This document shows positions 8,046 to 45,299 of a stretch of DNA of 64,000 nucleotides, one piece after another (the stretch's first letter is position 1; each line of letters starts with the position of its first letter). Where the stretch lies: assembly GCF_900110645.1 (NCBI RefSeq), contig NZ_FOFB01000019.1, positions 62,001 through 126,000 on the forward strand, written 5' to 3'. Made by a program: the position numbers and the translations under genes. The notes beneath the pieces are model-generated. The model was not told the origin of the DNA. It searched no databases and worked only from the letters and a program-made list of their open reading frames with translations. The stretch comes from Neolewinella agarilytica. Lineage in GTDB: Bacteria; Bacteroidota; Bacteroidia; Chitinophagales; Saprospiraceae.

Positions 8046-8136
8046 GTCAATTACTTGACTCTCCGACTATCTGACTGCTTGACTATCTGACTGCTTGACT
8101 ATCCGACTCCTTAACTAATTTGACTTCCTGACTCAA
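8046..8136. repeat. Low-complexity array TGACTNCT
   Basis: About 11 degenerate eight-base units (TTGACTAT, CTGACTGC and variants) before the MBOAT gene start; the same family recurs at 27304. Confidence 0.85.
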
Positions 8137-19180: not shown

Positions 19181-19382
19181 GTTGGAGGTTGCAGGGGCCA
19201 GGTTGCAGGTTGCAGGTTGCAGGGTCCAGGTTGCAGGGGCCAGGTTGCAGGTTGCAGGGGCCAGGTTGCAGGGTCCAGGTTGCAGACGCCTGGTAATAAC
19301 CCGCAACTTGCAACTTACAACCTTGCAACTTACACCTTGCAACTTGCACCTTGCAACCTGCACCTTGCAACCTGCAACCTAC
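19181..19382. repeat. Low-complexity inverted array GTTGCAGG
   Basis: Left half: about 12 GTTGCAGG(G/T)CCAG units; right half: CAACTTGCA/CAACCTGCA units, the inverse. It fills the metK-sulfatase gap and could form a giant hairpin. Confidence 0.9.
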
Positions 19383-24144: not shown

Positions 24145-24730
24145 GGCTAATAGAAAAAGGCCGTTGTCTTACGACAACCAACCATCGGCGGGCTACCAGG
24201 ATGCCGCTAGCGCGGGAAAAAGTCCGAACCGATGGGGGCTAATAGAAAAAGGCCGTTGTCTTACGACAACCAACCATCGGCGGGCTACCAGGATGCCGCT
24301 AGCGCGGGAAAAAGTCCGAACCGATGGGGGCTAATAGAAAAAGGCCGTTGTCTTACGACAACCAACCATCGGCGGGCTACCAGGATGCCGCTGGCGCGGG
24401 AAAAAGTCCGAACCGATGGGGGCTAATAGAAAAAGGCCGTTGTCTTGCGACAACCAACCATCGGCGGGCTACCAGGATGCCGCTAGTGCGGGAAAAAGTC
24501 CGAACCGATAAGGGCTAATAGAAAAAGGCCGTTGTCTTGCGACAACCAACCATCGGCGGGCTACCAGGATGCCGCTAGCGCGGGAAAAAGTCCGAACCGA
24601 TGGGGGCTAATAGAAAAAGGCCGTTGTCTTGCGACAACCAACCATCGGCGGGCTACCAGGATGCCGCTAGCGCGGGAAAAAGTCCGAACCGATGGGGGCT
24701 AATAGAAAAAGGCCGTTGTCTTGCGACAAC
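24145..24730 (-). repeat. Six-and-a-bit tandem 92-bp units derived from tRNA-Pro 3' end and terminator
   Basis: Direct repeat units begin at 24145, 24237, 24329, 24421, 24513, 24605 and (partial) 24697, a regular 92-bp period without spacers. On the minus strand each unit reads: an outer stem CATCGG/CCGATG, an inner hairpin CCGC-GCTA-GCGG, a stretch like the tRNA-Pro 3' end (ATCCTGGTAGCCCG against ATCCTGGTACCCCG), then hairpin GTTGTC-GNAA-GACAAC followed by GGCCTTTTTCT. The units follow tRNA-Pro in its direction of transcription. 92 is not a multiple of three, so the apparent reading frames are artefacts. Differences among copies are mostly in loops. Confidence 0.95.
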
Positions 24731-24740
24731 GACCTTTTCG
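24697..24740 (-). terminator. Intrinsic terminator of tRNA-Pro
   Basis: Immediately 3' of tRNA-Pro the minus strand reads AAAAGG-TC-GTTGTC-GCAA-GACAAC-GG-CCTTTTT: a 14-bp stem with one mismatch, a GCAA loop and a T run. Its distal half is the part copied in each of the six downstream 92-bp units. Confidence 0.85.
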
Positions 24741-24815
24741 TCGGGGTACCAGGATTCGAACCTGGGGCCTCCTGCTCCCAAAGCAGGCACGCTAACCGGA
24801 CTGCGCTATACCCCG
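24741..24815 (-). tRNA. tRNA-Pro (anticodon UGG)
   Basis: A 75-nt cloverleaf: acceptor CGGGGTA/TACCCCG, anticodon arm CCTGC-TTTGGGA-GCAGG, T arm CCAGG-TTCGAAT-CCTGG, discriminator A. No CCA is encoded. It is 31 bases after tRNA-Ser on the same strand and probably shares its transcript. Confidence 0.97.
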
Positions 24816-24843
24816 AAGTGAACCGAAGTTCACATTTAATTTG

Positions 24844-24935
24844 TGGCGGAGACGGCGGGATTCGAACCCGCGGTACCCCGTTAAGAGTACGTCGATTTAG
24901 CAAACCGGTGGTTTCAGCCACTCACCCACGTCTCC
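24844..24935 (-). tRNA. tRNA-Ser (anticodon GCU), CCA encoded
   Basis: Acceptor GGAGACG/CGTCTCC, D arm GGTGAGTGGCTGAAACC, anticodon loop TTGCTAA, a long variable arm (CGTACTCTTAACGGGGTACG region) typical of serine tRNAs, T arm GCGGG-TTCGAAT-CCCGC. The discriminator G is followed by CCA in the DNA, unlike the other two tRNAs here. Confidence 0.95.
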
Positions 24936-25185
24936 GGGTGTAAAATATGTAGTATCCTTTGGCCATTGCTCAAAGGGGAGATGATTCAGCAAACCGGATG
25001 GTTTACCTACGGTGGTCGCTGTGCTCTGCTCAGCCACTCACCCACGTCTCCGGGTGTAAAATATGTAGTATCCTTTGGCCATTGCTCAAAGGGGAGATGA
25101 TTCAGCAAACCGGATGGTTTACCTGCGATGGTCGCTGCGCTCTGCTCAGCCACTCACCCACGTCTCCGGGTGTAAAACTGCTTTG
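24936..25185 (-). repeat. Two 116-bp tandem copies of a tRNA-Ser-like element, 5' of tRNA-Ser
   Basis: The sequence beginning with the tRNA-Ser 5' 20 nt recurs at exactly 116-bp intervals (plus-strand positions 24915, 25031, 25147). On the minus strand, elements 25167-25093 and 25051-24977 (75 nt each) start with GGAGACGTGGGTGAGTGGCT as in tRNA-Ser, contain GGTTTGCTGAATC resembling its anticodon arm, and end with CATCTCC, which can pair with the acceptor 5' strand in six of seven positions. They lack a long variable arm and a T arm. They differ from one another by only a few bases. Confidence 0.9.
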
Positions 25186-25246
25186 CTAACAACTTTTTGC
25201 AGCATGGAAGTTGCAATTGGGCATGCGTTACTTCCTTAAGCGGTCG

Positions 25247-25276
25247 CAAATTTACGCGCATAAACTCATTTACAAA
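25247..25276 (-). promoter_or_regulatory. Promoter of the tRNA-Ser/tRNA-Pro unit
   Basis: Minus strand TTTG (25276-25273), 18 nt, then TAAATTTG (25254-25247), matching the Bacteroidota -33/-7 consensus TTTG-N19-21-TAnnTTTG within one base of spacing. Transcription would start near 25240 and run first through the two tRNA-Ser-like elements. Confidence 0.7.
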
Positions 25277-27303: not shown

Positions 27304-27366
27304 GCAGCTACTACCTGACTCCTTGACTACCTGACTGTTTGACTCCTTGACTACCTGACTCCCTGC
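27304..27366. repeat. Low-complexity array CTGACTCCTTGACTA
   Basis: About four degenerate 15-base units, same family as at 8046; lies directly after prfB's stop on its 3' side. Confidence 0.85.
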
Positions 27367-27369
27367 CTC

Positions 27370-28458
27370 CTACTTCGCCTCCCCACTCCACCGCAAGTAA
27401 GCCTTCAGAAACCCTTCCAGGTCCCCGTCCAGCACCGCATCCGTCTGCGAAGTCTGCCAGCCCGTCCGGTGGTCCTTCACGCGGCGGTCGTCGAGCACAT
27501 AGCTCCGAATCTGGCTGCCCCATTCGTTGGCGGTTTTCCCGGCTTCCACTTCTTCTTTCTCCGCGCGCTGCTTCTCCAGCTCTTTTTCGTAGATCCGGCT
27601 ACGGAGCATCTTCATCGCCCGGTCCCGGTTCTTGTGCTGCGAGCGTTCATCCTGGCACTCCACCACAATACCCGTTGGGGCGTGGGTAACCCGGACGGCG
27701 GACTCCGTCTTGTTAACGTGCTGCCCACCCGCGCCACTGGCGCGGAAGGTATCCCAGCTCAGATCGGCCGGGTTAATCTCCACCTCAATGCTGTCATCCA
27801 CCAGCGGGTGTACGAATACGGAGGCGAAGCTCGTCTGCCGCTTTCCCTGGGCGTTGAACGGACTGATACGCACCAGGCGGTGCACCCCGTTTTCGCCCTT
27901 CATCATGCCGTAGGCGAAGTCGCCCTCAATCTCAATGGTCGCAGATTTGATGCCCGCGACGTCCCCGTCGTTGCGGTTGGCGGGGCGGACTTTATAGCCC
28001 GCGTGCTTCTCGGCGTACATTGTAAACATCCGCAGCAGCATCTCGGCCCAGTCGTTGGCCTCGGTGCCTCCGGCACCGGCGTTAATCTCCAGAATACAGC
28101 CCAGTTCGTCTTCCGGGCGGTTAAGGGTGGCCCGGAACTCGGCGTCGTCCAGAACCGCAACGGTTTCTTCGTATCGGCGGTCCAGGTCTTCTTCCGTCCC
28201 CTCCCCTTCTTTCAGAAACTCCAGCAGTATTTCCAGGTCATCCACCCGGTCAGCTACCACCTGATATTGCTTTACCCAGCCCTTGTTACTCTGCAGCTGC
28301 TTCATCACTGCTTCGGCGGCTTTACTATCGTTCCAGAATTCCGGATCCAGGCTTTTTTGTGTAAGGTCTTCAATGACGAAGCTCCGCTTCTCCACGTCGA
28401 GGTAACCGCGCAGCAGGGCCAGGCGATCTTTGAGCTCTTTGAGTTGGTCTGAAGTCAT
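27370..28458 (-). CDS. prfB: Peptide chain release factor 2
   Basis: RF2 ends translation at UGA and UAA. The 362-residue product has the GGQ loop (SGAGGQHVNKTESAVR) that triggers peptidyl-tRNA hydrolysis and the SPF codon-recognition motif (RISPFNAQGKRQTS), which distinguishes RF2 from RF1. The frame is continuous from the ATG at 28458 (MTSDQLKELKDRLALL), so the programmed +1 frameshift found in many prfB genes is absent. It is downstream of, and separated by a terminator from, the rpmB-rpmG-DUF4295 operon. Confidence 0.97.
   Translation of the reverse strand: MTSDQLKELKDRLALLRGYLDVEKRSFVIEDLTQKSLDPEFWNDSKAAEAVMKQLQSNKGWVKQYQVVADRVDDLEILLEFLKEGEGTEEDLDRRYEETVAVLDDAEFRATLNRPEDELGCILEINAGAGGTEANDWAEMLLRMFTMYAEKHAGYKVRPANRNDGDVAGIKSATIEIEGDFAYGMMKGENGVHRLVRISPFNAQGKRQTSFASVFVHPLVDDSIEVEINPADLSWDTFRASGAGGQHVNKTESAVRVTHAPTGIVVECQDERSQHKNRDRAMKMLRSRIYEKELEKQRAEKEEVEAGKTANEWGSQIRSYVLDDRRVKDHRTGWQTSQTDAVLDGDLEGFLKAYLRWSGEAK

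Positions 28459-43715: not shown

Positions 43716-45299
<1,584 letters not shown>

Follow-up and report, generated by a model that had tools for sequence, protein, structure and literature searches.

The window, a stretch of 64,000 nucleotides from Neolewinella agarilytica, contains a tRNA operon on its minus strand between 24.1 and 25.3 kb (Table 1). In transcription order, the operon includes a promoter block, two units of 116 bp, intact genes for tRNA-Ser(GCU) and tRNA-Pro(UGG), and six units of 92 bp. All of these elements, which an initial sequence-only reading of this DNA had listed in the same order, were recovered from the sequence, the tRNA calls and a tandem-repeat analysis (TRF). 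The promoter block, TTTG-N18-TAAATTTG, follows the Bacteroidota-type promoter consensus; it is also found in three relatives (L011, L012 and L013), and in three others (L009, L014 and L015) only TAAATTTG is preserved.

Table 1. Coordinates of the tRNA operon and its tandem units within the window
Feature	Position	Strand	Basis
Promoter of the tRNA operon, TTTG-N18-TAAATTTG	25247..25276	-	sequence
Upstream unit 1, 116 bp	25052..25167	-	alignment to tRNA-Ser and tandem-repeat analysis
26-nt hairpin insert in the D loop of upstream unit 1, core GAGCGCAGCGACCATCGCAGG	25121..25146	-	alignment
Upstream unit 2, 116 bp, directly abutting tRNA-Ser	24936..25051	-	repeat comparison
tRNA-Ser(GCU), intact	24844..24935	-	tRNA call
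tRNA-Pro(UGG), intact	24740..24815	-	tRNA call
tRNA-Pro terminator	24699..24739	-	sequence
Downstream array, six complete 92-bp units	24147..24698	-	
Downstream unit 1, 92 bp: degenerate tRNA-Pro nt 46-76 with T-loop insert, then terminator	24607..24698	-	
21-nt insert, CCGC-GCTA-GCGG hairpin, in the T loop of downstream unit 1	24665..24685	-	alignment
Downstream unit 2	24515..24606	-	
Downstream unit 3, most divergent (94.6-96.7%)	24423..24514	-	
Downstream unit 4	24331..24422	-	
Downstream unit 5	24239..24330	-	
Downstream unit 6	24147..24238	-	

The 116-bp units do begin with the 5' end of tRNA-Ser, as first read: alignment places nt 1-21 at the start and, past the hairpin insert, nt 22 to about 43. 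In upstream unit 1 these are followed by TCTCC, which is able to pair with the copied GGAGA, and then by a hairpin and a spacer. The 92-bp units were likewise correctly described as a degenerate tRNA-Pro 3' end plus its terminator hairpin; tRNA-Pro nt 46-76 can be aligned, the hairpin and T run of the tRNA-Pro terminator are repeated in every downstream unit, and units 2-6 have the CCGC-GCTA-GCGG insert at the same position as unit 1. On the minus strand, a terminator scan flagged the copies in all six units; tRNA-Pro's own terminator was flagged on the plus strand only.

The TRF scores of the two arrays (1123 and 507) rule out a chance origin of the repeats, and the 92-bp unit has no occurrence outside this locus in the 6.2 Mb N. 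agarilytica genome. Identity is 97.4% between the two upstream units and 94.6-100% among the six downstream units. That such copies multiply in tandem, as had been suggested, is apparent when copy numbers are compared among relatives. In G009, a member of the same genus, tRNA-Ser and tRNA-Pro are identical to those of the window, and a single unit is present on either side, as against two and six in N. agarilytica, where the exact numbers are uncertain because the assembly consists of 74 contigs. The G009 units are 93.1% and 88.0% identical to those of the window; since the identity within the arrays is higher, the arrays grew or were homogenised after the lineages split. Other tandem arrays in the window consist of heptanucleotides (GTTGCAG / GCAACCT, at 19181-19378 and 45106-45298) or of 8/16-bp repeats (at 8054-8133 and 27310-27371).

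This layout is not peculiar to the Ser-Pro operon, since other tRNA genes of the same genome show the same anatomy. A census, with a copy score threshold of 32, covered 154 tRNA genes from seven genomes: 48 of the 49 tRNA matches listed in N. agarilytica and part of those in the other six. At least one partial copy was detected beside 31 of the 154 genes. Copies of the 5' half lie upstream in 14 cases and downstream in three, and copies of the 3' half lie downstream in 24 and upstream in three; in a control with non-cognate flanks, the threshold was reached in 26 of 4656 comparisons. The early observation that only tRNA ends are copied, the 5' part upstream and the 3' part downstream, thus extends from this operon to the census. 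In N. agarilytica, 11 of the 48 genes pass: Ser(GCU), whose copy scores 44, Trp, Asn, two Asp, Arg(CCG), Ala, Gly(GCC), Thr(GGU), Ser(GGA) and an atypical Val. Pro(UGG) was added by eye as a twelfth gene with a copy. Its copy is degenerate, with a score of 23 that falls inside the control range, and its identity rests on the copied terminator and on better-kept units at the same place in G015 and G008. A unit, then, is one tRNA end with its flank (the leader, or the trailer with its terminator) and a hairpin in or replacing a tRNA arm, and the intact tRNA stays adjacent.

The hairpins were examined in 33 copies selected by hand for alignment, some of which share one array. A hairpin-bearing insert is found in all 33, in most cases flagged by the alignment and in the two N. 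agarilytica Ala copies and the G009 Pro copy by eye. The atypical Val copy has no insert within its 30 matched nt. Four of the inserts, one in the Asn copy, one in an Asp copy and two in a full-length Arg copy, are related 24-nt hairpins without visible target duplication, with the intact tRNA serving as the empty-site reference. This hairpin type, one of the GNA kind, is dispersed in N. agarilytica, with 62 matches as compared to seven for the backwards pattern, and about nine of the 62 fall within tRNA units. Among 30 of the dispersed loci that were read, two are at tRNA genes and many others are in larger palindromes (judged by eye, uncounted). The dispersed hairpin-pair element itself, GCCGNAGGCAGMCGCGNAGCG, is found at 62 places (e.g. 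L143-L172) and, in many of the loci read, lies in the loop of a longer palindrome. The T-loop hairpin type of Ser(GGA) and Thr, by contrast, is not dispersed; its four matches in N. agarilytica are all beside those two tRNAs. Hairpins also differ between species at the same gene, as the Trp 5' array of G019 carries TCCCGATAGCTATCGGGA and that of N. agarilytica a GNA-type hairpin located in a different loop. G019 (Neolewinella antarctica) contains 106 TCCCGA(N3-8)TCGGGA palindromes, against zero when the pattern is run backwards; in each of the remaining 20 genomes of the genus the number is 2-17.

At several tRNA genes, the copies flank a short ORF of the GIY-YIG family. This is the case for tRNA-Ala and tRNA-Asp in N. 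agarilytica and for tRNA-Asp in G013 and G019, and Pfam PF01541 is found in all four of these ORFs. Two of the five GIY-YIG matches in N. agarilytica are short free-standing ORFs, and each is located no more than 200 bp 3' of a tRNA gene, on the strand of that gene, with a hairpin-bearing 3' part of the tRNA after it. The window arrays have no such ORF, and none of the five matches is on the window's contig.

The four tRNA-adjacent ORFs were used in a scan of named genomes, which identified 459 relatives; the best 80 were analysed. The ORFs are about 90 amino acids long, and an ORF-bearing unit measures about 0.4 kb. In 68 of the best 80 the ORF is within 500 bp of a tRNA gene, in three it is further away, and in nine there is no tRNA in the locus. 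This 85% adjacency applies to the subfamily, because the 80 loci are the best matches to four ORFs that are themselves tRNA-adjacent; chance proximity is estimated at less than 1%, a figure for the N. agarilytica genome only (49 tRNA matches in 6.2 Mb). In all 71 of these loci with a tRNA within 1 kb, the nearest tRNA is on the same strand as the ORF; in a few, what is counted as this tRNA may itself be a copy armed with a hairpin. Beyond the ORF, 53 of the 71 loci have a partial copy of that tRNA, and in 18 none is detectable. Where the tRNA is upstream, a far-side copy is found in 43 of 58 loci, as against five of 58 when another tRNA is drawn at random; where it is downstream, the count is 10 of 13, a figure without a control. 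A TCCCG-CGGGA hairpin occurs in the 200 bp around the copy in 41 of the 71 loci, but in only four of 1294 control windows and three of 1420 shuffles, and a looser form occurs in 52 of the 71 and 21 of the 1294 control windows. The strict hairpin is absent in 30 loci, 19 of which also lack the loose form. In many of the 22 loci inspected, the hairpin replaces the anticodon arm. A separate adjacency scan, in which the ORF was recognised in part of the loci, scored nine of 30 within 500 bp, nine on the same strand and eight with a far-side copy.

The tRNA-adjacent loci among the best 80 of the 459 include representatives of the Bacteroidota, Marinimicrobia, Cloacimonadota, Chlorobiota and Patescibacteria. 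Relatives of one of the ORFs were sought in viral contigs, and none were found. One Marinimicrobia MAG (L185, 2438-3772) contains three tandem GIY-YIG ORFs with a TCCCGACATGCGTCGGGA hairpin before each; a tRNA-Asp 5' part was read before the second and third, and an intact tRNA-Asp follows the array. In three further loci (L178, L138 and L118), the final codons of the GIY-YIG ORF reach or enter the partial tRNA copy (one example ends in ..ENGPGSSVG), so that the stop is supplied by the tRNA part.

The ORF-bearing and ORF-less units are bridged by loci at tRNA-Pro. Three loci show the Ser-Pro operon of other genera. L033 has two ORF-less units with the Pro 5' part, and L037 has one such unit and a second broken by the contig end; both have TCCCG hairpins, and both contigs stop before tRNA-Pro. 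L032 has two ORF-less Pro 3'-part units with TCCCG hairpins. In locus L273 (G105), tRNA-Ser is followed by a complete pseudo-tRNA-Pro with TCCCGATTTTAAATCGGGA as its anticodon arm, then by the genuine tRNA-Pro, a GIY-YIG ORF and a tandem pair of 3' units. In both 3' units the anticodon arm has a TCCCG hairpin, which is frayed in the first unit and intact in the second, and the T loop has a GGC-GCA-GCC hairpin, at the hairpin position of the window's Pro units. In L280 (G045), whose contig shows no tRNA-Ser, a 5' unit, tRNA-Pro, an ORF-less 3' unit, an ORF and a further 3' unit follow one another.

Within the genus, nine of 21 genomes match the ORF profile. Nineteen loci were read at the tRNA-Asp gene: the ORF is present in N. 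agarilytica, G013, G017, G019 and G008 (the last by profile), ORF-less copies are found in G005 and, by eye, in G007, and nothing clear is seen in 12, one of which (G010) has a single hairpin. G017 and G003 form a filled/empty pair at this gene. Their match runs through the end of the terminator (1615 in both), beyond which G017 carries additional DNA that comprises two ORFs and hairpin-bearing copies; similarity then returns, displaced by about 0.8 kb initially and by about 0.5 kb farther along. G005 has two identical, and therefore recent, Ser units, yet it has no match to the GIY-YIG ORF profile, which implies that units can expand without such a nuclease being resident in the genome.

With the anatomy and polarity of the units, their hairpins, their association with the ORF, their presence and absence among relatives and their tandem expansion all observed, the best explanation for the window arrays appears to be that they are ORF-less, locally multiplied units of a family that settles at tRNA genes through a nuclease mechanism, a reading that we favour by a modest degree. 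The sequence-only reading overlooked that the phenomenon is genome-wide and that its anatomy is common to GIY-YIG nuclease elements. Cutting, homing and the part played by the hairpin are what we infer from these features. A GIY-YIG nuclease would cut within a tRNA gene, and repair against an element-bearing or sister copy would duplicate the tRNA end and its flank, leaving the gene intact. The hairpin in the copy would destroy the cut site and render the copy inert. An existing unit could then expand by ordinary unequal recombination or slippage, here to two and six copies, and the window arrays would be ORF-less descendants or passengers of GIY-YIG elements.

The window units have the 5' part upstream and the 3' part downstream of an adjacent intact tRNA, and a hairpin lies in or replaces a tRNA arm of each copy. 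Their hairpins are of the GNA or GCTA type, not TCCCG-CGGGA, and to call them members of the GIY-YIG element family is therefore a weaker claim than to say that they are built like its members. The dispersed GNA hairpin may belong to another element, given its dispersal and the small share of its matches that fall in tRNA units. On the reading favoured here, the GNA-hairpin arrays of the genus would descend from or depend on GIY-YIG members. More broadly, and with less confidence than we would place in an even chance, these loci may represent a widespread minimal mobile element of bacterial tRNA genes, which invades by means of a GIY-YIG nuclease of about 90 amino acids, spares the tRNA through duplication of its end, marks the spare part by exchanging an arm for a hairpin, and produces ORF-less arrays, including both in the window, that are moved in trans.

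One close likeness is to a phage enzyme. In PMC13096335, the GIY-YIG nuclease SegB of phage T6 is described as cutting in tRNA genes, with RAWTSGAAC as the enriched motif, and driving tandem amplification of a tRNA segment. This motif can be read as the complement of the T-loop sequence. SegB of T-even phages resembles the bacterial ORFs in being a free-standing GIY-YIG nuclease adjoining tRNA genes. The bacterial ORFs, however, are about 90 amino acids long and have an intact tRNA on one side and, on the other, a partial copy of it in which a conserved hairpin lies in an arm or replaces it, and the window arrays lack an ORF altogether. SegB-like cutting and amplification is proposed for the bacterial elements, every enzyme step of which would hold by analogy.

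It is also possible, but rather unlikely, that the units arose passively, with slippage duplicating a tRNA end and its flank and the spare copy receiving REP-like hairpins of a dispersed kind, all without a GIY-YIG nuclease. Insertion of a hairpin into the sole good copy would be lethal, and none is seen. The 24-nt inserts in Asn, Asp and Arg (twice), the dispersed hairpin family, the Val copy without an insert and the G005 expansion all agree with such an origin. Repeated slippage, one of three options offered at the outset, does account for the copy number, but it explains neither the origin of the units nor their hairpins. Hairpins in all 33 selected copies are unexpected for later accidental insertion, ORF-less units have the hairpin of the nuclease elements at the same operon, and the Ser(GGA)/Thr T-loop hairpin type is not dispersed. 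REP/REPIN sequences, which are associated with RAYT transposases, are likewise short, dispersed hairpin pairs without visible target duplication, but the hairpins described here are inside tRNA parts. A RAYT link was rejected, as none of the five Y1_Tnp loci in N. agarilytica is convincingly flanked by the dispersed hairpin; there are only two hairpin hits, each with five mismatches and each separated from the Y1_Tnp match by over 0.5 kb.

An interpretation of the units as functional RNAs, which would resemble tRNAs or act as decoys for enzymes of tRNA processing or modification, seems improbable. The layout has a counterpart in the distal repeats of E. coli tyrT, the source of rtT RNA, which are 178-bp units with 19 nt of tRNA-Tyr. 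These too are tandem units that start in the tRNA 3' end downstream of the gene, but the units of the window and family have hairpin inserts, include 5' parts as well, and occur at many tRNAs and in many lineages. Rfam holds a family for RtT RNA. A search against Rfam returned nothing but tRNAs at the cut-off, and no rtT family even with E up to 1; the earlier suggestion of a family of tRNA-like small RNAs is not supported, and no evidence was found for decoys of tRNA-processing enzymes. The same search gave no intron covariance match, and a group I intron in the tRNA was rejected. The Ser units lie between the promoter and the tRNA and are therefore probably transcribed. They fold better than shuffled sequences in the window (z of -2.4 and -3.0, frame shifted 7 nt), in G015 (-5.1) and in G004 (-3.7), but the values for G005 and G019 are no lower than -1.0 and -0.7, respectively, and two Pro units give -1.6 and -0.2 (frame shifted 10 nt). 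The Pro units are moreover located behind the tRNA-Pro terminator, each ending in a terminator of its own, and both hairpin sequence and unit presence vary between close species.

The idea that the hairpin and TCTCC insulate the real tRNA from misfolding with the half-tRNA was considered and is unsupported by the folding model, which speaks against an insulating role of the Ser leader. In the thermodynamic model, the probability of the native acceptor stem in the window is 0.000 with the real units and 0.674 without them. With the real Ser leader it is at most 0.012 in four of five species; the exception is G019, at 0.679 versus a shuffled mean of 0.464.

That the units are remnants of tyrosine-integrase attachment sites is most improbable: integrative elements at tRNA genes often give rise to partial tRNA genes and also leave one intact and one partial copy with gene function kept (PMC9897764), but here both tRNA ends are used, with 5' parts upstream alongside 3' parts, the units measure only about 100 bp (too short, in the window, for an integrase gene) or about 0.4 kb with an ORF, hairpins lie within the parts, and the ORF-bearing members have a GIY-YIG ORF.

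The DNA elements proposed here, which settle at tRNA genes and leave them intact, appear to form a family that has not been described; in the open PMC literature, no account was found of such units, nor of GIY-YIG elements tied to tRNA genes on bacterial chromosomes. Essential tRNA genes are expected to be hard to invade, and the elements suggest a route that needs almost no DNA, in which the gene is kept, one end is duplicated and the duplicate is disarmed by a hairpin. They connect GIY-YIG nucleases to tandem amplification on bacterial chromosomes in a way that can be tested, and would explain puzzling tRNA-end repeats as well as some false tRNA calls. Hairpin-armed pseudo-tRNAs give rise to erroneous annotations of suppressor or additional tRNAs: ARAGORN calls one such copy, beside tRNA-Pro in L273 (oriented (-), 1265-1340), a tRNA-Stop(tta), and another, beside tRNA-Val in L082 (1405-1472), a tRNA-Glu(ttc).
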